In this document: positions 695 through 18,214 of the stretch, piece by piece | Numbering within the stretch: the first letter of the stretch is position 1 | Layout: each line of letters starts with the position of its first letter | Virus record (IMG/VR): IMGVR_UViG_3300030406_001564 | Span: 1 to 23,725 of that record | DNA: 23,725 nt | Reading direction: 5' to 3' (one strand) | DNA from: a virus | The notes under the pieces: generated by a model | Database searches by the model: none | The model's input: the letters and a program-made list of their open reading frames with translations, nothing else | What the model was told of the DNA's origin: nothing | Translations under genes and position numbers: made by a program

Positions 695-2125
695 ATGAAA
701 TATAAATTTAAAAAGAAGCCGTATGCACACCAAATTACCGCTTTGGAAAAATCTTGGAATAGAGATACGTTTGCATATTTTATGGAAATGGGGACTGGTA
801 AAACAAAAGTCCTAATTGATAATTTAGCAATGCTTTATGATAAAGGTAAAGTAGATGGTGCATTAATTGTGGCACCAAAAGGTGTGGTCGGCACATGGTA
901 CAACCAAGAGTTGCCTGCACATTTACCTGACCACATAGAAAATGTGACCGTTTTGTGGCAATCAAATATAAATCAAAAACAACAAGACAAGTTAGACTTA
1001 TTATTTAAATCTGGTCATGAGCTTCATATTATTATAATGAATGTTGAAGCTTTTAGCACAGATAAAGGTAGATTGTTTGCAGCTAAATTTTTAAGATCAC
1101 ACAAATCATTAATGGCTATTGATGAGTCTACGACAATAAAAAATCCAAAAGCAAAGAGAACAAAAAATATATTATCGCTGTCATCCATCTGTAAATACAG
1201 ACGGATAATGACAGGTTCTCCTGTCACTAGAAACCCATTAGATCTTTATTCACAATGTGAGTTTTTAGATCCAATGCATTTAAACCATTCTTCTTATTAT
1301 TCTTTTAGAAATAGATATGCTATTATGAAAAGCGCAAACATATCAGGAAGATCTATTAATCTTGTCACAGGTTATCAAAACCTAGGTGAGTTGTCGGATA
1401 AGTTGAAACCTTTTTCTTACAGAGTATTGAAAGAGGATTGTTTAGATCTACCGGATAAGGTTTATATGAAAAGAGAAATACAGCTTACACCTGAACAGAA
1501 AAAGTTATACGATCAAATGAAAAGAGAGGCATTAGCAACGTTAAATGGTAAAACTGTTACAACTATGACAGCACTCACACAGCTTATGCGGTTACATCAA
1601 ATAACTTGTGGACATTTTTCTGCAGATGATGGCACAATACAAGAGATTAAAAACAATAGATTATCAGAACTATTGGACGTATTAGAAGAGGTAGAGGGTA
1701 AGGCTATCATATGGGCCCACTATCAACACGATGTTAAAAACATATTTAAGTTATTAGAGGACAAATATGGTCAGGGTTCCGTGGTCCATTATTATGGCAA
1801 AACGTTACCTGAAGAACGAGACTATGCTATTAAGAGTTTTAAAGAGAATGATAGAGTCAGATTCTTTGTAGGCACACCACAGACGGGTGGATACGGTATC
1901 ACACTAACACAAGCAAACACTGTAATTTATTATTCTAATGGATATGATCTAGAAAAAAGAATGCAATCAGAAGACAGAGCACACAGAATAGGGCAAAAGA
2001 AAACAGTGACATATGTGGATATTATAGCAGAAAAAACCGTAGATACAAAGATAGTGAAATCTTTACGAAAAAAGATTAATATAGCATCTGAAGTTATGGG
2101 AGAGGAGTTAAAAGAATGGATATAA
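695..2125 (+). CDS. SNF2-type superfamily 2 DNA helicase/translocase
   Basis: A 476-aa protein that probably uses ATP to move along duplex DNA in phage replication or recombination. Visible motifs: a Q-motif-like PYAHQ (residues 9-13); Walker A EMGTGKT (31-37); DEST (143-146) in place of the usual DEAH/DEGH box; motif III MTGSP (172-176); the second RecA fold with IIWAHYQHD (338-346); motif V TGGYGITLTQA (397-407); and motif VI QSEDRAHRIGQ (424-434) with the arginine fingers. The HRIGQ signature is typical of SNF2-family proteins. It is compact: only the two RecA lobes, with no accessory domain. It follows a candidate promoter and overlaps the next gene by 10 nt, indicating an operon with the oxygenase. 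The exact substrate is unknown. Confidence 0.93.
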   Translation: MKYKFKKKPYAHQITALEKSWNRDTFAYFMEMGTGKTKVLIDNLAMLYDKGKVDGALIVAPKGVVGTWYNQELPAHLPDHIENVTVLWQSNINQKQQDKLDLLFKSGHELHIIIMNVEAFSTDKGRLFAAKFLRSHKSLMAIDESTTIKNPKAKRTKNILSLSSICKYRRIMTGSPVTRNPLDLYSQCEFLDPMHLNHSSYYSFRNRYAIMKSANISGRSINLVTGYQNLGELSDKLKPFSYRVLKEDCLDLPDKVYMKREIQLTPEQKKLYDQMKREALATLNGKTVTTMTALTQLMRLHQITCGHFSADDGTIQEIKNNRLSELLDVLEEVEGKAIIWAHYQHDVKNIFKLLEDKYGQGSVVHYYGKTLPEERDYAIKSFKENDRVRFFVGTPQTGGYGITLTQANTVIYYSNGYDLEKRMQSEDRAHRIGQKKTVTYVDIIAEKTVDTKIVKSLRKKINIASEVMGEELKEWI

Positions 2126-2631
2126 AAGCACCGTTTAAAATAAATTTTTTGACAATAAAAACAGAAGGGTTCTTTCTAAAAAGAAAAGAAATAAACAAAA
2201 AACTTAAAAAGTTCCCTGAAAAAAGATATGCAAATTTCTATAGTAATAGACAAAAGTGCACTATGGAAAAAGATTTTGTAAAAATATTTGAAGATGAGTT
2301 TCTTAAAATATCAAAACACTTTCAATCTCAAATGAATCTTGAAAGCTGTTGGTCAGCAACATACTCAAAAGGTGACTACCATGTCCCACACAACCATGGT
2401 TCTACTGGTTATTGTGGCATTCTATATTTAGACATGCATAAAAAATCACCATCTACTGTGTACATGCAACCATGGAATGATGATTTTGACAACACTATCC
2501 TATACGAGCCCACTGTAGAAGAAGGAGATATAGTAATTGTGCCTAAATTTGTGGTTCATTTTACTAGACCAAATCCAGTTTCTTTTAAAAAAAGAATTAT
2601 ATCTTTTGATTTTAATTTTTTTAAAAAATAA
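2116..2631 (+). CDS. 2OG-Fe(II) oxygenase-like protein, HxH type (no. 1)
   Basis: A 171-aa protein of the putative 2OG-Fe(II) oxygenase group that has His-x-His instead of His-x-Asp. The core shows W79, then PHNHGS with H92 and H94, a hydrophobic strand GILYLD (101-106), EEGDIVIVP (135-143), distal H148 and R160 in KKRIISFDFNF. H92, H94 and H148 are candidate metal ligands, and R160 is the candidate 2-oxoglutarate anchor. Substrate unknown. The start is supported by an AGGAG at 2103-2107 inside the helicase 3' end. The Lys/Phe-rich N-terminus (1-60) has no recognised motif. It is the only oxygenase on the plus strand, so it would be expressed with the helicase, which hints at a nucleic-acid or early role rather than a virion role (inference). 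It abuts the convergent endolysin with no gap. Confidence 0.8.
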   Translation: MDIKAPFKINFLTIKTEGFFLKRKEINKKLKKFPEKRYANFYSNRQKCTMEKDFVKIFEDEFLKISKHFQSQMNLESCWSATYSKGDYHVPHNHGSTGYCGILYLDMHKKSPSTVYMQPWNDDFDNTILYEPTVEEGDIVIVPKFVVHFTRPNPVSFKKRIISFDFNFFKK

Positions 2632-11063: not shown

Positions 11064-11227
11064 TAATTTAAAAAGAAGTTTTCAGCTTCTACCTCATCTT
11101 TTAAGTCTTGTTGATACGTAGTATTTAATTTATTAATGATACCATCAATATCTCTAGCTTGTGACTCTGATATTGTATAATCATATTCTATACTAGGTCT
11201 TGTAAATGTTTGCACTATCTTCGCCAT
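11063..11227 (-). CDS. Small protein of unknown function (54 aa)
   Basis: A short gene with ATG at 11227-11225 and TAA at 11065-11063. It reads MAKIVQTFTRPSIEYDYTIS and continues with a charged helical part ending AENFFLN. Both ends are TAATG overlaps, which strongly supports a real gene. No TM and no motif recognised. Confidence 0.65.
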   Translation of the reverse strand: MAKIVQTFTRPSIEYDYTISESQARDIDGIINKLNTTYQQDLKDEVEAENFFLN

Positions 11228-11688
11228 TATCTATATCCATTTGTTTTCTGGTACCAAGAAATCATTGTGTACCTTGTTCCTTTTACTTGTTCAACTCCGT
11301 GTAAAATTTTTTTACTGTTAAAAAAAATAAAATCTCCAATATTATTTTTAATAAATTTGTCTTCTACAATAGTTCTTCCGCCTTTATAATTTGAGTTTAA
11401 ATAACAAATACAAGTATAATCATTCTCTTCTACAGCCTCTCCATCGTAATGGTTTTTCATAAAAGAACCATCAGGCCATTTTACTACCTGTAAATAATTA
11501 AATTTAACATTATGTTGTTTAGTAACAAAATCTATTAGTTTATCTCTAAAAGGAATTTTTTCATCTTGTAATAAAAAAGTATTATTCCATTGTTTTATTT
11601 TATCTTTGTTAGATTTAAAATAATCTATAATCTTTTTACATTCTTTTTTTGAAAAAAATCCCATAGCTTTGTTAACCATCTTTGCCAT
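11227..11688 (-). CDS. 2OG-Fe(II) oxygenase, prolyl 4-hydroxylase-like (no. 2)
   Basis: A 153-aa protein with the canonical His-x-Asp...His facial triad: H80-Y-D82 in KNHYDGEA and H130 in ILHGVEQV. R139 in GTRYTMISWY is the expected 2-oxoglutarate salt-bridge partner. The double-stranded beta-helix strands YTCICYLNSNYKGGRTIVE and IGDFIFFNS lie between them. It would hydroxylate a substrate using Fe(II), O2 and 2-oxoglutarate; the family includes prolyl hydroxylases, but the substrate cannot be read from sequence. It has TAATG junctions at both ends and lies just after the large tail protein, so it is fully integrated in the virion operon, unlike the AT-rich oxygenase block. Confidence 0.88.
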   Translation of the reverse strand: MAKMVNKAMGFFSKKECKKIIDYFKSNKDKIKQWNNTFLLQDEKIPFRDKLIDFVTKQHNVKFNYLQVVKWPDGSFMKNHYDGEAVEENDYTCICYLNSNYKGGRTIVEDKFIKNNIGDFIFFNSKKILHGVEQVKGTRYTMISWYQKTNGYR

Positions 11689-13895
11689 TATCTTCTACCA
11701 TCCGGTTGTATGTCTAATCTAAACGTTCCAATTTTCCAATCTTGACCAGTGCCTGTATTTTCTACTTTTAAAGCTACTGCTCTTCCTCTAGCTCTGGTGT
11801 CAACCTTTGTTGTTGATGATGTAATAGTAAAAGGCCCTAACGAAGAACTAGCCGCTGTATCGTTAGAGTAGTTTTTTAAATTTAATGTAACTTGTGTATT
11901 ACCTGTTTGAGATACAAAGTCAGGTATAAATCTTCTAACCTTCATTAAAAACTCTCCATCTCCTCTAAAAGTTGCTGTTCCTGACACCTGTCCTCTTTGA
12001 AGTTGTTGAGTAATATCAAAATCTCCTGATAATATATTAGCTGTGATTGCAGTTATTGTTCCGTTTTTATTTTGATCAGTTCCTGTTTCATGTTCATAGT
12101 AGGCTGTTCTCCCTTCTGTATTACCCACAACATCAAACGATGTATCAGTGTCGGCATCATAATCAAGAGCATGAGGTAAACCAAACACAGCTGAATCTTT
12201 CCACATAGTTCTATCTAATGTGCCAATAGTCCACACAGGTCTTTGTGGTGATGAATCAAAATAATTATAACAAACCATTTTATTTACAACAGAGGATGTT
12301 GCTGACGGATAGAACCACATAATCTCACCAAACAAATTATTAAGTCCTGCAGATATCATCTGATTACCAGATGCTATATTAATATCATCAAATACAAAGT
12401 CCTCTACTAAACATGGGAGTGATTCTAATTTACCGGCGTATCTAAAGAATCCGTTTTCAGATAACCAGTATGCTGCACCATCTACCTCTACAACAGCATT
12501 TTGTCCTGCAAGTCCACAGTTTGTACCAGCCTGTGTAAATGCAAAAGTAAATGGTTGACCAACAAAACGCATTAAGAATAACGCAGTATCGGTATAAACA
12601 TAAATTGCATCTCTACCTCTAATGGCTCCTCTGATCTGTGATCCGTCGGCCAGTCTCTGTGTGCCGGCTGTGTTGGTGGCTGTTGGCGCATACGTGTTAA
12701 TATCCTCTTGGTCCGAAAATCTAATAAACATATCGTCTTGTGTAGTTTTATTACCGATAGTTGTTTCTGTTCCAAAAAACACCAAGTGTCTATCCGGTGT
12801 TGATACTACCATGTGTCTTGAAGCTGTAGGGGCTCCAGATATAATCGTGCATCGTGTGTCGGTAGCATTGGACAAAGAAGAATCCCATTCAAACACTTCA
12901 CCATCATGAATTAAACAAATAGCTTTATCACCAAAATTATCCAGTGACCACATGCCAGGCTCTAATACTAAATCTCCGGATGCTGCTTCTCCCCAAGCTA
13001 CGAAGTCAGTTGTATTCGTTACAGTCGCTCCGTCGCTGTGAGCGGCTCTTGTTGTGCCTCTTACAGCTCTGGTAATCCCTGTTAAAGTTGTGCCACTTGT
13101 GACACCAGTGTAAGATATTTCTTCTGTTCCTACTTTTATAAAATTTGTTCCTGAACTTGGAAACTGTGATGCATCGGCTAAAACAATACTAGTGCCTGAC
13201 CCTCCAGTTCCAAAAGCATTGTCGCCTAGAGCACCATTAAGTGTAGTGGTTACAGCATTAGAAGCTTCACCACCCCAGGATCCTAAACCCCAACCAAAAC
13301 CTTTTTCTTGAACTGCAGATCCAACAGGAAAGTAGTGTTGTACTCTAATACCTCCAGATGTCGTGGCTCCTGAACCAGACTCGTTTGATGGCATTGTAAT
13401 AGTAATTGTTTCTGTTGTAGGCACAGAGGTAACCATAAATTTTTTATCATCAAAATCAGATGCACTGAAATTAGATCCGGTGATAGTCGTAAAATTATCT
13501 AAAAGAATAATATCCTGTGGGCTAATACCATGGGCCGAAGCAAAAGTTATCGTTACGGTCGGTGATCCGTTGGTCGTGCTGAATGCATTGGTAAGCGTTG
13601 TAGTAGATTTAATTGGGTGTATGTCATAAAACACACCACCTGAAAAAGCATATAATATTCTGTTTGTGCCTATAATCGCGTATCTTCGACCTAAACTATT
13701 AACGAAGTGGTGTAAACCTCTACCGGCTCCTGTTAATTCATTCTCATTAACGTTTCCTAGCTGGTTCCATCCACCAATTTTTTCTGGAACACCATATCTA
13801 AAACGAACATTGTCACAGTCTATCCACTGTCCTTCGGCCGCTGTGGCTGTGATCTGTTTGTTGATACCTGGTTGAAAGCCTATCTTCTGTAGCAT
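11688..13895 (-). CDS. Large phage tail protein (stopper/nozzle candidate)
   Basis: A 735-aa beta-rich protein. The start MLQKIGFQPGINKQ and the following WIDCDNVRFRYGVPEKIGGW are typical of large tail proteins of marine short-tailed phages, where the related position is occupied by P22 gp10-like stoppers or T7 gp12-like nozzles. I cannot decide between these. Two inserted modules are visible: residues ~96-190, Thr-rich beta (TLTNAFSTTNGSPTVTITF), and ~235-295, with the module EEISYTGVTSGTTLTGITR and RGTTRAAHSDGATV, found in many phage structural proteins. No Shine-Dalgarno precedes the ATG; a 7-bp hairpin ends ten bases upstream. The stop overlaps the P4H-like oxygenase start as TAATG. Confidence 0.65.
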   Translation of the reverse strand: MLQKIGFQPGINKQITATAAEGQWIDCDNVRFRYGVPEKIGGWNQLGNVNENELTGAGRGLHHFVNSLGRRYAIIGTNRILYAFSGGVFYDIHPIKSTTTLTNAFSTTNGSPTVTITFASAHGISPQDIILLDNFTTITGSNFSASDFDDKKFMVTSVPTTETITITMPSNESGSGATTSGGIRVQHYFPVGSAVQEKGFGWGLGSWGGEASNAVTTTLNGALGDNAFGTGGSGTSIVLADASQFPSSGTNFIKVGTEEISYTGVTSGTTLTGITRAVRGTTRAAHSDGATVTNTTDFVAWGEAASGDLVLEPGMWSLDNFGDKAICLIHDGEVFEWDSSLSNATDTRCTIISGAPTASRHMVVSTPDRHLVFFGTETTIGNKTTQDDMFIRFSDQEDINTYAPTATNTAGTQRLADGSQIRGAIRGRDAIYVYTDTALFLMRFVGQPFTFAFTQAGTNCGLAGQNAVVEVDGAAYWLSENGFFRYAGKLESLPCLVEDFVFDDINIASGNQMISAGLNNLFGEIMWFYPSATSSVVNKMVCYNYFDSSPQRPVWTIGTLDRTMWKDSAVFGLPHALDYDADTDTSFDVVGNTEGRTAYYEHETGTDQNKNGTITAITANILSGDFDITQQLQRGQVSGTATFRGDGEFLMKVRRFIPDFVSQTGNTQVTLNLKNYSNDTAASSSLGPFTITSSTTKVDTRARGRAVALKVENTGTGQDWKIGTFRLDIQPDGRR

Positions 13896-13905
13896 AGATT
13901 ACAAA

Positions 13906-13924
13906 ATATAGCACAAAGCTATAT
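13906..13924 (-). terminator. Small hairpin plus T-tract before the tail gene
   Basis: ATATAGC (13906-13912) and GCTATAT (13918-13924) form a 7-bp stem with a 5-nt loop. On the minus strand it is followed by TTTT. It lies between the oxygenase stop (13928) and the ATG at 13895. It could be a weak intrinsic terminator or a translation-control hairpin, and only two pairs are G-C. Confidence 0.35.
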
Positions 13925-13927
13925 ATT

Positions 13928-14500
13928 TCAATGTTTAAATATACAATTAACCACTACCCTAAATCTAAAATTTAAGGGAGGACTAGCGGCATGTAAGGTA
14001 TTTGAATCAAATATAACAGCTCGTCCTCTTTTGGGTCTAACTCTTTTTATCACTTTTCTGTGGTTATTAAAGAATAAAGTGTCTCCATCTGAATCATTTA
14101 CGTAATATAGGACGCTTGTATAAATATTGCCAGGATAGTCAGAATGCAATGACCCATGGGTTTTTTCATTTGCACCTATTATCTGAACATTTAAATTAGC
14201 TTTTACTCTGTAAAAACTTTTAATTTTAATAAACTTATTAGACTTATACATTTTTTCAAGTCGTGGCCAGTGCATAGAATTTCCTTTTTCCTCCATGTAA
14301 AAAGTATGGCAAAATTGATGATAATCTTTTTCAAAAGGTAAACCTGAATTTACTTTAATTCCTGAAGTATAGTTGTCTGGAACGTAGTTTGAAGTGTGAG
14401 CGAGAAACCAAGGAAACTGATTGTCAAGATCTACATAAAGAGTTTCTTCAAGAAAGTCTTGATCTTCTTTTTTAAAAAAATTGTCTACTACTTTAATCAT
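13928..14500 (-). CDS. 2OG-Fe(II) oxygenase (no. 3)
   Basis: A 190-aa protein with H119-S-D121 (GSLHSDYPG), distal H170 (SNTLHAASPP) and R179/R181 in NFRFRVVVNCIF, which matches the 2OG-Fe(II) oxygenase facial triad and co-substrate site. The strand before the distal His is RGRAVIFDS, preceded by DGDTLFFNN. The first ~100 residues form a helical lid with many aromatics (QFPWFLAHTSNYVPD; SMHWPRLEKMYKSN), giving this member its own subfamily. There is no clear Shine-Dalgarno. Hairpins lie on both sides of the gene, suggesting it is a separately controlled unit. Substrate unknown. Confidence 0.85.
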   Translation of the reverse strand: MIKVVDNFFKKEDQDFLEETLYVDLDNQFPWFLAHTSNYVPDNYTSGIKVNSGLPFEKDYHQFCHTFYMEEKGNSMHWPRLEKMYKSNKFIKIKSFYRVKANLNVQIIGANEKTHGSLHSDYPGNIYTSVLYYVNDSDGDTLFFNNHRKVIKRVRPKRGRAVIFDSNTLHAASPPLNFRFRVVVNCIFKH

Positions 14501-14509
14501 CTTTATAAA

Positions 14510-14535
14510 GGGGATAGTCGTGGTGAAACTACCCC
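14510..14535 (-). terminator. GC-rich hairpin between two oxygenase genes
   Basis: On the minus strand GGGGTAGT (14535-14528), a 9-nt loop and ACTATCCCC (14518-14510) pair as eight base pairs with one bulged T, followed by TTTATAAAG and then the ATG at 14500. It is the most G+C-rich stem in a very AT-rich block and fills most of a 48-bp gap, the longest spacing between genes here. Terminator or leader hairpin; the T-tract is short. Confidence 0.4.
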
Positions 14536-14548
14536 CATTCTTCCTATA

Positions 14549-15163
14549 TCATTTTCTAAACCATCCAGGAAGTCCTAAATGTAGTCGTCCATCGAACATA
14601 TTCTTTTCAGCTTTCTTGGAAACTTTATTGTAGTGTAAAAAAACTTGAGCACAGTCTTTACCTTTAAATGCTTCTCTCCAATGCTCTAACTCACATCCAG
14701 AATAAATAAGCATGTCTCCTGGTTTTAAATCTATCTTAACTCCTTTTAATCCTTTTTTACCTGATGGCTCTAAATATATTGGCCAAGAATCTCCACCTAA
14801 ATTAAGTGTAGTAGATATCTCACAACTAAATCTATCTTTGTGTCTTTCAAGAACATCACCCTTTTTATAGATTCTTGCGTAGGAATAAGTGGGTGTTAAT
14901 TTTAAACCTGTGTGTTTTTCCATAGCAGGCTGAACTTTTAATAACAAAGTCTCCATGGCTACATCGGCGTAGTGTGAATATGTATTTGGAACTTGATTGT
15001 CATTCCACCTGCCCCAATCTTCTTCGTGCTTTGATATGTAGTTGTGTTTAAATAAAGTATCAGCAACTTGTCTTTTCATCAAAAAATAATTGTAGACAAA
15101 TCCAGCTAGATCAGAAGACACAGCTTTTTTTAAAACAGTGTATTTATTTTTTTTAAAGGTCAT
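14549..15163 (-). CDS. 2OG-Fe(II) oxygenase-like protein (no. 4)
   Basis: A 204-aa protein with H108-K-D110 (VLERHKDRFSCEIS) and distal H161 (GCELEHWREAF). Strands ISTTLNLGGDSWPIYLE and LKPGDMLIYSG complete the beta-helix core. The position where an Arg normally binds 2-oxoglutarate reads CAQVFLHYN, with Q173 and no Arg; a Lys (K167 or K169) or another residue might substitute. I recall a similar ELEHWRE...QVFLHYN form in marine phages. The start overlaps the upstream oxygenase stop by 4 nt (ATGA). A C-terminal extension (182-204) is Lys/Gly-rich. Substrate unknown. Confidence 0.82.
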   Translation of the reverse strand: MTFKKNKYTVLKKAVSSDLAGFVYNYFLMKRQVADTLFKHNYISKHEEDWGRWNDNQVPNTYSHYADVAMETLLLKVQPAMEKHTGLKLTPTYSYARIYKKGDVLERHKDRFSCEISTTLNLGGDSWPIYLEPSGKKGLKGVKIDLKPGDMLIYSGCELEHWREAFKGKDCAQVFLHYNKVSKKAEKNMFDGRLHLGLPGWFRK

Positions 15164-15654
15164 CTTATATTTCTTAAATTAAAATTGAACGCTATAATCT
15201 TTTTCTGGTCATTATAATTATTTTTTGATGTGTGTAAATAGTAACTTGGGAAGATCAACAAGTCTCCCTCTTTTACATTAATTGATTTTTTGTTAAATAT
15301 TTTAATACCTTGTTGTTTAGGATTAGGTAAATATAAATAATAAACAGCAGAAAGATTTGTATGACTATGTGTGTGCCATCCATGTCTACCTTTTTTTAAA
15401 TAATTTTGATACCAGTAGTTATCAATAATAATTTCTATATTATTAGAGTGTTGTTTATAATATTCTTTTACAAAAAGTTTTAAGTATTTTAAAAAAATAG
15501 GATGCATTAGAGGCCAATAAGGTTTTGAAGTATTCTTTGGCATAAACCAATCACTTATTAAATTACCATCATTTTTACCTGCTGTTACATTAAGCAAACT
15601 AACAGCTTTATCTTTAATAGATTTATGTTCTTTTATCTTTTTTATCCAAAGCAC
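15160..15654 (-). CDS. 2OG-Fe(II) oxygenase-like protein, HxH type (no. 5)
   Basis: A 164-aa protein of the same HxH class as no. 1: H94-T-H96 in GWHTHSHTN, strand LSAVYYLYLP, EGDLLIFPSYYL and distal H141. The 2-oxoglutarate anchor position holds Lys (K151/K152 in DQKKIIAFNFN) rather than Arg; Lys is used this way in prolyl 4-hydroxylases. Replacement of the acidic ligand by His would give a three-His site. The gene is extremely AT-rich (only 9 of 60 bases are G or C at 15421-15480) and Lys/Asn/Tyr-rich. Four-base overlap downstream, two-base gap upstream. Substrate unknown. Confidence 0.78.
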   Translation of the reverse strand: MLWIKKIKEHKSIKDKAVSLLNVTAGKNDGNLISDWFMPKNTSKPYWPLMHPIFLKYLKLFVKEYYKQHSNNIEIIIDNYWYQNYLKKGRHGWHTHSHTNLSAVYYLYLPNPKQQGIKIFNKKSINVKEGDLLIFPSYYLHTSKNNYNDQKKIIAFNFNLRNIR

Positions 15655-15656
15655 AA

Positions 15657-16301
15657 TTATCTATATGGTTTTCCTAAATTCCAAATTACTAAACTATATC
15701 TAACACCTTTAGTTATTGGTTTAACTCTATGCCAAACAAAAGATGGAAAAACAACTATACTACCTTTAGGTAGTATCTCCGTGCATAATTTAGTATTTCT
15801 AGCACGTTCAGGATCTTGATTTCTTAAATCAAATTCTAATTCTCCTCCTTGATATTTTTTTGGATCAGTTAAACTCACTGTCACAGATAGCTTTCTTATC
15901 AAACCATTTTCTGGTCCTTCTTTCTTGTAAGGCGTGTCCCAACTGTCTTGATGCCAGTCATAGTATTGACCTTCTTTGTATATGGTAAACTGACAAGATT
16001 CAGATCTATCCCAATCAAAATTCCAACCAGCTTGTTGATTGGCCTCTCTAATAAAAGGGTGTATTTCTTTGTATATCCATCTATCATCTAACCAAACAAT
16101 ATTAGAATCTCTTTTCTTTTTTAAATTAAAAAGTTCTCTTTCATTTAAAGGGTTCTTTTTTATATCTCTATATTTATTTTTTTCCTCTGCTCCTGTGATA
16201 GCAATACCTTCTTTCTGTTCCTTGCCGTGTCTTATTATTAAATCACATATTTTAGATGGAAGAGCAGATTTAAAATAATAATAATAATTATTTAAATTCA
16301 T
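15657..16301 (-). CDS. 2OG-Fe(II) oxygenase, P4H/PiuC-like (no. 6)
   Basis: A 214-aa protein and the most canonical oxygenase of the set: H117-Q-D119 (YYDWHQDSW), a GGELEFD turn (152-158), PKGSIVVFPSFVWH with H191, and R201 in KGVRYSLVIWNLGKPY. Strand order and spacing match prolyl-4-hydroxylase-domain proteins, a form widespread in marine cyanophages. The N-terminus begins MNLNNYYYYF, encoded by an ATA/TAT trinucleotide run. It overlaps the upstream degenerate paralogue by 14 nt. The substrate cannot be inferred; protein prolines, free amino acids or nucleobases are all possible. Confidence 0.9.
   Translation of the reverse strand: MNLNNYYYYFKSALPSKICDLIIRHGKEQKEGIAITGAEEKNKYRDIKKNPLNERELFNLKKKRDSNIVWLDDRWIYKEIHPFIREANQQAGWNFDWDRSESCQFTIYKEGQYYDWHQDSWDTPYKKEGPENGLIRKLSVTVSLTDPKKYQGGELEFDLRNQDPERARNTKLCTEILPKGSIVVFPSFVWHRVKPITKGVRYSLVIWNLGKPYR
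16274..16290. repeat. ATA trinucleotide run
   Basis: About five tandem AAT/ATA units encode the tyrosine run at residues 6-9 of oxygenase no. 6 and reach the stop codon of the upstream gene. A one-unit slip would add or remove a Tyr without shifting frame. Confidence 0.5.
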
Positions 16302-16839
16302 ATGTTGTAGTTAAAAATATGTTACGCTTTCTAGACATGTTAGGTGTTATAAAATATTTTAACGAGCTTGGAAACATAACAAAGAAATTGCTTTTCATTT
16401 GAACAAACCACTTCCTGCCCTCTCTACGATTATTATTAAATTCAATAACCATTTGACAAGATTCTGGTTGAACATCTATTCCATACACAAAAGTATAATC
16501 AGGAGAGCGTCTTAAATCTAAAGGGTCCACAGTATTTCTTAAAAAGGATTGTTCTTTAGGTGCGTAAACGTTTCCCCAATTTTTCATAGGAACTAAATGT
16601 TTTTCATAATCTATTTTATAGTGATCTTTAAAATGATCCTGTAACCAAGATAGTTCTTTTGAATATTCCACTACATAATCAAGATAAGAGTAATCTCTAT
16701 CATCATCACTCATTCTTTTATTATCTATAAAAGACTCTAATATATTGCCTTTTATTTCTGCTCTCTTAATTTCAAAATGTTTTGGAGTTTTGATTTCGCC
16801 GTAATAATAATCTATTTCTGATAGCACCACTTTTTTCAT
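16288..16839 (-). CDS. Degenerate 2OG-oxygenase-fold protein (no. 7), metal ligands lost
   Basis: A 183-aa protein that keeps the outline of the HxH oxygenases but not their ligands. Shared landmarks are NWGNVYAP (87-94, compare NYWYQNY in no. 5), strand DYTFVYGIDV (114-123, compare LSAVYYLYLP), NFFVMFPSSL (151-160, compare DLLIFPSYYL) and a final RNIFLTTTYEF (compare KIIAFNFN). The region where HxH should lie reads RNTVDPLDLR, and the distal His is replaced by Tyr162. No His occurs after residue 81, so a facial triad is impossible. It is probably a structural or regulatory paralogue, or a partner of the active members. It starts the block of five oxygenase-fold genes. The relationship is my alignment by eye. 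Confidence 0.6.
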   Translation of the reverse strand: MKKVVLSEIDYYYGEIKTPKHFEIKRAEIKGNILESFIDNKRMSDDDRDYSYLDYVVEYSKELSWLQDHFKDHYKIDYEKHLVPMKNWGNVYAPKEQSFLRNTVDPLDLRRSPDYTFVYGIDVQPESCQMVIEFNNNRREGRKWFVQMKSNFFVMFPSSLKYFITPNMSRKRNIFLTTTYEFK

Positions 16840-16842
16840 AAT

Positions 16843-17301
16843 TTATACTGAATTTATATCAACTAAATCCCATGTTTGTCCAGCTTCATTCCACTGATAT
16901 TTCCAAAATTTACCTGTTCCTGCATCTACACTTGCAATATTTTCTGCTTCTTGTTCAGCCGTTAGGCTAGGTTCTGCAACTGGGGGATCCCAAGCCGCTG
17001 TTGATAAATTTAAAGTCCAACTATCATAAGGTTTTGGCGGTATAAAAATGTCGTTTGTTTCGTCATAATTCCAACCAACACCAGGATAGTTTCCCCTAAA
17101 AGGTGTTCCACCTAATTTATGTGTATTTCTAAAAGTATTATAAGAGCATTTTTTCCAAAGAGGATAAAAGTGTATTTTTTCTAGGTATCTTCTACCTCTT
17201 TCCTCTTCTTCAACACCCTCATCACTAGAAGTTTTAACATCATCTACAACATGCACTCCTAGTACTCTGTTATCTTCATCTAATTTTGCAAAATGTGCCA
17301 T
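16843..17301 (-). CDS. Conserved marine-phage tail-region protein
   Basis: A 152-aa protein. It begins MAHFAKLDEDNRVLGVHVVD, then an acidic stretch (SSDEGVEEEERG), a middle GGTPFRGNYPGVGWNYDE and FIPPKPYDSWTL (~86-97), and a Glu/Ala-rich C-terminus ending with Trp-rich KFWKYQWNEAGQTWDLVD. I recognise this form from cyanophage and other marine-phage tail-fibre regions, where it has no assigned function; a virion or fibre-assembly role is inferred from position. A short AGGAT Shine-Dalgarno precedes the ATG. It separates the fibre genes from the oxygenase block. Confidence 0.7.
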   Translation of the reverse strand: MAHFAKLDEDNRVLGVHVVDDVKTSSDEGVEEEERGRRYLEKIHFYPLWKKCSYNTFRNTHKLGGTPFRGNYPGVGWNYDETNDIFIPPKPYDSWTLNLSTAAWDPPVAEPSLTAEQEAENIASVDAGTGKFWKYQWNEAGQTWDLVDINSV

Positions 17302-17314
17302 ATCCTATAAATCC

Positions 17315-18214
17315 TTATTGAAATTTATATCTTATTACTACAATTCCTGATCCACCAGTGAAGCCTGATCCTCCGCCACCACCAGTATTTGCTTGTCCTG
17401 CAGCTCCGGGAGGTCCAGTGCCACCACTGCCTGGTCCGCCGCCGCCGGATCCTCCTGATCCGCCGCCACCAGGGTTAGCAATTGGATATCCTCCACCGCC
17501 ACCACCGCCAGCTCGTGTTACAGATGAGCCTGTAATTGATGTTGAAACTCCTGCACCACCAGGTCCACCAGCATTACCTTGTCTAGCGCTTCCAGCACCT
17601 CCGGCTCCTCCGCCACCACCTGCTGATCCTGCGTTTGAACCAGGGGGCTCTCTTCCTTGCCCACCAGGCTGTCCTTGAGGTGGACTTGTTGGAGGTTCAT
17701 TTCCATTGCTTCCAGGATTAAATTGATTTTCACCACCGCCACCACCAGAACCACCTTGTCCGTTTGGACCCATTCCACCGCCGGCAGATGTTATTGTGCT
17801 AAAAATTGAAGGCTCACCTTGTGAGCCTGGTTGATTTGTTCCACCACCACCTACTTGTATTGGATAACTACCAGCTGCTAAAGTTATAGCGCCTGCTCCT
17901 TCTAAAGGAGATTGAGTATATGAATCATTGGCTGCTTCGTCTTCTCTAAAGCCACCGCCTCCACCGCCGCCGTTTTGTGCAGCTGAATTGGTTCCGCCAC
18001 CACCACCAACTACCATGTAACTAGCTAAATTGTTTGGTTGAGGAGCTGGTCCACCGCTACCTTCTAGTGTAACGCTGAATGTGCCATCTCCAGTAAATGT
18101 GTGAATTTTATAATCTCCGTCAGTGCTTTCTGTTCCACCTGTAGCTACTACGAACTCTGATGTTGCAGTTCCGCCTCCAAAGCCTAAAACTTTATATCCA
18201 AATCCAGTTGCCAT
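17315..18214 (-). CDS. Glycine-rich receptor-binding adhesin candidate
   Basis: A 299-aa protein. The N-terminal ~65 residues are beta-rich (VLGFGGGTATSEFVVATGGT; YKIHTFTGDGTFSVTLEGSG), then ~220 residues are dominated by Gly with runs of five to seven (NGGGGGGGFRE, AGGGGGGGYP), ending GGSGIVVIRYKF. Polyglycine-helix bundles form the tip adhesins of some phages (for example the S16 gp38 class), and the IVVIRYKF-type end is common to marine-phage fibre tips. Proline-rich parts (GNEPPTSPPQGQ, GREPPGSN) and a collagen-like GPPGAAG (267-273) are present. The Gly codons make this the most G+C-rich part of the window. A strong AAGGAG Shine-Dalgarno follows the fibre gene stop. Likely determines host range. 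Confidence 0.75.
   Translation of the reverse strand: MATGFGYKVLGFGGGTATSEFVVATGGTESTDGDYKIHTFTGDGTFSVTLEGSGGPAPQPNNLASYMVVGGGGGTNSAAQNGGGGGGGFREDEAANDSYTQSPLEGAGAITLAAGSYPIQVGGGGTNQPGSQGEPSIFSTITSAGGGMGPNGQGGSGGGGGENQFNPGSNGNEPPTSPPQGQPGGQGREPPGSNAGSAGGGGGAGGAGSARQGNAGGPGGAGVSTSITGSSVTRAGGGGGGGYPIANPGGGGSGGSGGGGPGSGGTGPPGAAGQANTGGGGGSGFTGGSGIVVIRYKFQ

Follow-up and report, generated by a model that had tools for sequence, protein, structure and literature searches.

The 23.7-kb virus fragment IMGVR_UViG_3300030406_001564 in IMG/VR (23,725 nucleotides, referred to here in full as the window) carries an array of genes for proteins of the 2-oxoglutarate (2OG)-Fe(II) oxygenase fold close to the gene for a glycine-rich adhesin. 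Based on its sequence and that of related loci, we suggest that this array may be a tailoring island whose enzymes act on the phage's own receptor-binding protein, the glycine-rich adhesin, modifying it after translation and probably by prolyl hydroxylation, and give this reading a probability of roughly 0.58. The observations behind it are the fold, the iron ligands, the tight packing of the genes, a conserved adjacency to the adhesin gene, an array content that tracks the adhesin, and a diproline motif that predicts the array. The window is a fragment of a relative of the HTVC023P-type pelagiphages; its gene order is that of this group, and its 735-amino-acid (aa) structural gene has relatives in pelagiphages HTVC023P and HTVC027P, in 023Pt_psg01, in DSL-LC04 and in roseophages.

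The original prediction, made from the letters of the window, listed seven oxygenase-fold open reading frames (ORFs), four with HxD..H ligands, two with HxH..H and one with none. Pfam, PHROG and structure models, along with inspection of the ligands, bear out both the number and the assignments (Table 1; genes are named by their first coordinate). Pfam 2OG-Fe(II) models match five of the proteins above cut-off, PF13759 at 2116 and 15160 and PF13640 at 11227, 13928 and 15657, while the remaining two match PHROG families: 14549 matches phrog_2954 (E 2e-51) and 16288 matches phrog_81, named '2OG-Fe(II) oxygenase' (E 1e-6). The six ligand-bearing genes apparently belong to the 2OG-Fe(II) oxygenase superfamily and are predicted to encode enzymes. 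As their diversity had led the original prediction to expect, the seven proteins are only 18–27% identical in pairwise comparison; there are therefore no recent duplicates among them, and recent tandem duplication is ruled out as the origin of the array. The array proper runs 16288-15657-15160-14549-13928 (families F6, F0, F5, F1 and F2), with 11227 directly after the 735-aa gene. Gene 2116 lies in a different operon, on the plus strand and next to the helicase.

A census that used the 735-aa gene, and not oxygenases, as its anchor covered 80 IMG/VR loci and five phage records and yielded 416 oxygenase-like ORFs in 36 families at E<1e-15. In almost every one of these loci the array lies immediately upstream of the anchor; where 5 kb or more of upstream sequence was available (65 loci), 4–5 oxygenases are typical and 11 the maximum. 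The battery had been taken for an unusual expansion; the profile and structure searches upheld the oxygenase fold, but the survey of related contigs found such arrays to be common and indeed standard in the HTVC023P-type group (PMC9599517). Of the pairs of consecutive genes in the arrays, 78% overlap, the median gap being -4 bp. The gene order is partly fixed, with F6 near the front, F0 behind it, F1 mostly close to the anchor and variable families in between, and the content turns over strongly among loci. Among 55 representatives of families other than F1 and F6, the dominant Pfam matches are PF13759 (37) and PF13640 (20). Roseophage CRP-902 has 0 oxygenases at the anchored locus, and the position of the window's 11227 gene is rare (two members in the locus set).

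Further modifying enzymes occur in the array or at its edge in about 20 of 85 loci, a few of them on weak matches. They include an FAD-dependent tryptophan halogenase inside the array (L012 and L013, 5607-6992; E 4e-90 in L012), a carbamoyltransferase (L027, E 9e-50), sulfotransferases (L007, L011, L014), O-methyltransferases (L050, L014, L030) and JmjC/cupin proteins. One array protein (L007, 3493-4764) fuses a sulfotransferase with an Asp/Asn beta-hydroxylase domain. In cyanophage S-CAM8, a carbamoyltransferase, oxygenases, F1, the small protein 'm' and a tail-fibre gene all lie together.

The array keeps company with the adhesin well beyond the window. A protein was counted as glycine-rich when some 80-residue stretch of it holds at least 30% glycine. 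By this measure, 54 of 63 HTVC023P-type loci have a glycine-rich ORF one to three genes ahead of the array; the adhesin slot of the other nine is mostly filled by slightly less glycine-rich or tail-collar proteins. In L010, L033, L076 and L084, a tail-collar protein replaces the glycine-rich adhesin and the oxygenase array is on the opposite strand. A second set of loci was found by F1 alone, the query being the F1 protein of HTVC008M, a T4-like pelagiphage, and here a glycine-rich protein lies within three genes of the array at 28 of 29 scorable loci, with 'm' usually present too; F1 of S-PM2 as query gave 6 loci. The adhesin is on the opposite strand in 9 loci, and a shared operon is therefore not the whole reason for the adjacency. 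Oxygenase-blind searches anchored on 'm' gave two sets of loci, and an oxygenase lies within three genes at 59/79 of the first and 32/71 of the second (set B); the alignment of 'm' itself has no conserved stretch for a profile scan. In five complete podovirus genomes, every 2OG Pfam match falls at the adhesin locus.

Array content also follows the sequence of the adhesin. Across 52 dereplicated loci, similarity in oxygenase content correlates with adhesin identity computed without Gly-Gly matches (r 0.36, p 0.002), and within two adhesin classes r rises to 0.53 and 0.55; similarity by BLAST score agrees. The corresponding values are r 0.18/0.27/-0.11 for the adjoining 735-aa protein and 0.15 for the fibre gene; for 'm', whose gene separates the array from that of the adhesin, r is 0.06 overall and 0.28 in the single class examined.

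The adhesins themselves are richer in proline beside at least two oxygenases than beside none (0.092 vs 0.048, p 5e-10; 177 vs 32 proteins, uncorrected for phylogeny). Within otherwise variable adhesins on both podo- and myophage contigs, the sequence GN[TS]PP[VT]SPPQGN is nearly invariant. Of 222 array-associated adhesins, 60 contain its general form [STP]PP[QE]G, where shuffled sequences would lead one to expect 1.0; among adhesins without oxygenases it is found in 1 of 35. IMG/VR was then scanned with back-translated motif patterns alone, using a neutral glycine-rich pattern as control and requiring at least 2.5 kb downstream. Among the matches listed, an oxygenase lies within 5 kb downstream of 173 of 189 motif adhesins but of only 20 of 70 motif-less ones (p 3e-23, nominal given the relatedness of the contigs and an overlap of a few of them with the discovery set), and 154 of the 189 have two or more.

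The motif accompanies particular families. It is found at 14/15 F6 loci of the HTVC023P-type set (p 1e-8), where F4 is also associated with it (p 3e-6). Mapped on a tree of the 735-aa protein, F6 shows about 12 changes, and among 12 edge-disjoint pairs differing in F6 the motif is concordant in 9 and opposite in 0 (p 0.004). Outside the HTVC023P-type group, F6 accompanies 138/178 motif adhesins vs 48/94 motif-less ones and F4 137/178 vs 52/94, with no difference for F0 and F1. The window has F6 and lacks F4.

Several points weigh against a role in adhesin modification. The motif was found post hoc and accompanies only some arrays; most contigs of the later motif scan were fresh, but a few had already served in its discovery. 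Raw 3-mer similarity gave no covariation with the adhesin (r 0.08), because GGG trimers dominate that measure. The covariation and the motif linkage could in part reflect co-inheritance of neighbours, F6 being near the adhesin. T4-like myophages carry many oxygenases elsewhere in the genome. The widespread pair of adhesin and 'm' often occurs without oxygenases, in 9 of 11 m-bearing phage-collection records and 31 of 71 loci in set B; a strict requirement of the pair for oxygenases is thus false, and the array, or the modification, is an optional addition to the adhesin module. Finally, 2OG binding by F1 is only putative, given a non-basic position after its distal histidine.

What the array acts on, by which chemistry, and what F6 contributes we infer as follows. 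The product of the adhesin gene, two genes upstream of the array, would be the array's substrate, and upon late expression the active oxygenases would hydroxylate residues in it. The prolines of the GN[TS]PP[VT]SPPQGN loop are the best candidate site, and residues elsewhere may be modified too. Distinct oxygenases would serve distinct sites, which would be why the enzyme set turns over with the adhesin. F6, either as a binding partner or as one half of a heterodimer, may present the motif to an active oxygenase, possibly F4 in many relatives, though not in the window, which is without F4. In those relatives that carry sulfotransferases, carbamoyltransferases, methyltransferases or tryptophan halogenases, these enzymes would elaborate the product. 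The phage would probably gain a stiffer loop in its adhesin, or a surface with new chemistry by which to recognize receptors. In support, the solved folds nearest to the F1 model include prolyl hydroxylases that act on proteins. More tentatively, and at somewhat less than even odds, marine phages may possess a dedicated adhesin-decorating system, in which swappable arrays of up to 11 oxygenases act on defined motifs such as GNTPPVSPPQGN together with a conserved pseudoenzyme partner and, optionally, enzymes that transfer sulfo, carbamoyl, methyl or halogen groups, adding chemical to sequence diversity in host recognition.

The main rival is that oxygenase genes of unrelated purpose gather at a recombination hot spot and are swapped along with the adhesin. 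High array turnover across the 36 families, the position of F6 near the adhesin and the many adhesin and 'm' pairs without oxygenases all fit such hitch-hiking, which accounts for the turnover but not for the prediction of the array by a short peptide motif. It also sits poorly with the lower covariation of the intervening 'm', with F6 and F4 tracking the motif when the universal F0 and F1 do not, with an adjacency that persists through strand inversion, and with a cargo of a single enzymatic theme; we consider it unlikely. The current literature view is that these are auxiliary metabolic genes which, with 'ferrochelatase' partners, act on the host's metabolism of 2-oxoglutarate, iron or heme; it has been proposed for cyanophages (Sullivan 2010, PMC3037559; S-SCSM1, PMC9602691) and pelagiphages (PMC9599517; PMC11561400), and host iron-transport genes rise in HTVC027P infection (PMC12753301). 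We find it improbable for these arrays: the 'ferrochelatase' partner has an oxygenase fold, the genes lie within a run of tail genes and not beside metabolic genes, and 2-oxoglutarate turnover alone would not need many divergent, adhesin-tied enzymes.

There is a similarly small chance that the enzymes modify the host surface (outer-membrane proteins, lipopolysaccharide or glycan precursors) for progeny release or to block superinfection. Coupling to the adhesin could then be receptor matching, and the carbamoyltransferases, TylF-like methyltransferases and sulfotransferases of the arrays belong to families that also act on sugars, yet the proline motif inside the adhesin and its tight prediction of the array are left unexplained. 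Base hydroxylation or hypermodification of the phage genome is very improbable. The 2OG enzymes TET and JBP modify DNA, but among the window proteins the Tet_JBP profile matched 11227 alone, below cut-off (14.7 bits vs 34.9, E 0.018). Some HTVC023P-type phages have thymidine hypermodification genes, but these are near the DNA polymerase, away from the array (PMC9599517). The original prediction had favoured tail-protein modification while holding host-protein, DNA and metabolite hydroxylation equally open; adjacency across phage types, adhesin covariation and the diproline motif now back the former, and the others keep some probability but are no longer equally likely.

Gene 14549 (F1) belongs to the family whose relatives are labelled 'ferrochelatase'. 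Pfam gave no match for it. An AlphaFold2 model built from an alignment of 35 relatives (predicted local distance difference test score, pLDDT, 95.6) was compared with the PDB by Foldseek, and the best matches were prolyl-4-hydroxylases (E 3e-9), with a Pseudomonas prolyl-4-hydroxylase, PHDs and other 2OG enzymes at the head; the 50 structural matches listed are 2OG-type oxygenases or uncharacterized proteins, with no ferrochelatase among them. The HxD and the distal histidine are invariant across 37 F1 sequences. The basic residue about ten positions past the distal histidine, which 15657 and 11227 possess, is absent from F1, where another invariant Arg or Gln may serve, and an F1 search gave weak Tet-like matches only. 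The ferrochelatase model PF00762 matched none of 35 members of the phrog_2954 family at E<=1, and the phrog_2954 profile matched in 0/14 control cellular genomes; we therefore regard the published 'ferrochelatase' labels as a misannotation. Together with the model and its structural matches, the lack of a PF00762 match leads us to reject a ferrochelatase identity for 14549. The phrog_2954 'ferrochelatase' that the literature pairs with oxygenases is, by its model, itself an oxygenase fold, which appears to be new.

The misnaming already underlies published ecological claims (PMC9599517; PMC11561400), a 2024 time-series paper having explicitly used phrog2954 as "ferrochelatase" (PMC11561400), and a correction is due. 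The region 13928-15163 matches phrog_2954, phrog_3531, phrog_274 and phrog_2297, and the 'ferrochelatase' and 'DNA endonuclease (V)' labels that sit on these oxygenase-fold families in PHROG have been carried into many phage records. For 13928 and phrog_274, endonuclease V is rejected, as Pfam matches only 2OG models (PF13640, weakly PF13759) and no endonuclease. The gene at 13928-14500 also has a weak NCBIfam match to an FlmC-type 2OG oxygenase (E 4e-6), far under cut-off.

Gene 16288 (F6) had been called a dead paralogue. It does lack iron ligands, and structure comparison of its model (pLDDT 86.5) finds 2OG oxygenases (best E 3.5e-7), but it is not decaying. None of the 22 members of its family has ligands at the aligned positions, and the ratio of nonsynonymous to synonymous substitution rates (dN/dS) is 0.10-0.28 in five pairs; F6 is therefore a conserved pseudoenzyme, and a decaying pseudogene is ruled out. 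Alignment to F5 by hhalign, with modest support, shows the HxH replaced and the distal histidine changed to Tyr or Phe. A sequence-profile search of F6 against the PDB found no match. F6 is usually at the front of the array.

The remaining features of the window are listed in Table 1. An HxH oxygenase of the 2116 type beside a helicase on the other strand also occurs in at least two relatives, L020 (19150-19662) and L041 (17121-17633), at a site separate from the adhesin array. Glycosyltransferase genes lie shortly past the 735-aa gene in L083 (17122-18051) and L084 (18468-19415), which represent HTVC023P and HTVC027P. A DUF6065-like protein (weak Pfam match) directly precedes the array in loci of the c12/c15 adhesin type (L072 4084-4872 and relatives, cluster c21).

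Table 1. Adhesin locus and oxygenase-fold genes of the window.
Feature	Coordinates	Strand	Match or basis
Glycine-rich adhesin, 299 aa, hypervariable receptor-binding type, proposed substrate	17315..18214	-	phrog_2295 E 9e-37
Motif GNEPPTSPPQGQ, adhesin residues 171-182, variant of conserved GN[TS]PP[VT]SPPQGN, proposed modification site	17669..17704	-	
'm' protein, 152 aa, MAHFA... family, small adhesin partner	16843..17301	-	phrog_7759 E 1.5e-34
F6, ligand-less 2OG-oxygenase-fold pseudoenzyme, array gene 1	16288..16839	-	phrog_81 and model
F0 oxygenase, HxD..H (H117,D119,H191), in nearly all arrays	15657..16301	-	PF13640
F5 oxygenase, HxH..H (H94/H96 or H96/H98, then H141), GTG start	15160..15654	-	PF13759
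F1 oxygenase, HxD..H (H108,D110,H161), 'ferrochelatase' label in relatives	14549..15163	-	phrog_2954
F2 oxygenase, HxD..H (H119,D121,H170)	13928..14500	-	PF13640; matches phrog_274, named 'DNA endonuclease V'
735-aa virion structural / 'stabilization' protein, closes array, census anchor	11688..13895	-	phrog_3287 E 4e-99
Oxygenase, HxD..H (H80,D82,H130), directly after 735-aa gene	11227..11688	-	PF13640
Oxygenase, HxH..H (H92,H94,H148), helicase operon, outside adhesin array	2116..2631	+	PF13759

Phage oxygenases and their abundance are already known, and prevailing explanations for them are 2OG and nitrogen metabolism, DNA repair or generic auxiliary metabolic genes (PMC3037559; PMC9602691). 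The 'ferrochelatase' fold, the linkage to the adhesin, the motif and the pseudoenzyme association appear to be new, being absent from the literature searched (subscription journals were outside its scope), in which no proposal of adhesin modification by phage oxygenases was found either. If adhesin modification is indeed what the array does, then one of the often-cited classes of marine "auxiliary metabolic genes" would be part of the host-recognition machinery, and host range would depend on chemistry that is invisible in sequence alone. The motif offers virion proteomics a single peptide target, making the idea directly testable on cultured phages.

Among known systems, the T4-like gp38 adhesins are hypervariable receptor-binding proteins with glycine-rich motifs, like the array-linked adhesin, and we know of no modifying enzyme array beside gp38. 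TlxI, which is among the top fold matches of F6, forms with TlxJ a two-subunit dioxygenase (PDB 7vbq, 7vbr) that is a possible model for F6 and an active partner; it differs in serving a natural-product pathway, and the F6 partnership is putative. The F1 fold matches include virus- and bacterium-encoded protein hydroxylases, namely vCPH of chlorella virus PBCV-1 (PDB 5c5t) and the Pseudomonas prolyl-4-hydroxylase in complex with EF-Tu (4iw3). However, these are single enzymes of 12–14% identity, with no array and no adhesin partner.

T4-like cyanophages such as S-SCSM1, with 24 oxygenases (PMC9602691), share the superfamily and F1, and some of their clusters adjoin tail-fibre genes, but many copies are scattered over the genome and 2OG and nitrogen metabolism has been invoked for them (PMC9602691). 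The closest precedent concerns the same phage group and the same genes as the array described here. Wittmers et al. (2022) reported eight non-orthologous oxygenases in HTVC023P-type phages, frequently close together and near "ferrochelatases", and treated them as auxiliary metabolic genes (PMC9599517). In contrast to that view of metabolic partners, the 'ferrochelatase' here is of oxygenase fold, and the array is tied to the adhesin and extends to as many as 11 genes together with other tailoring enzymes.

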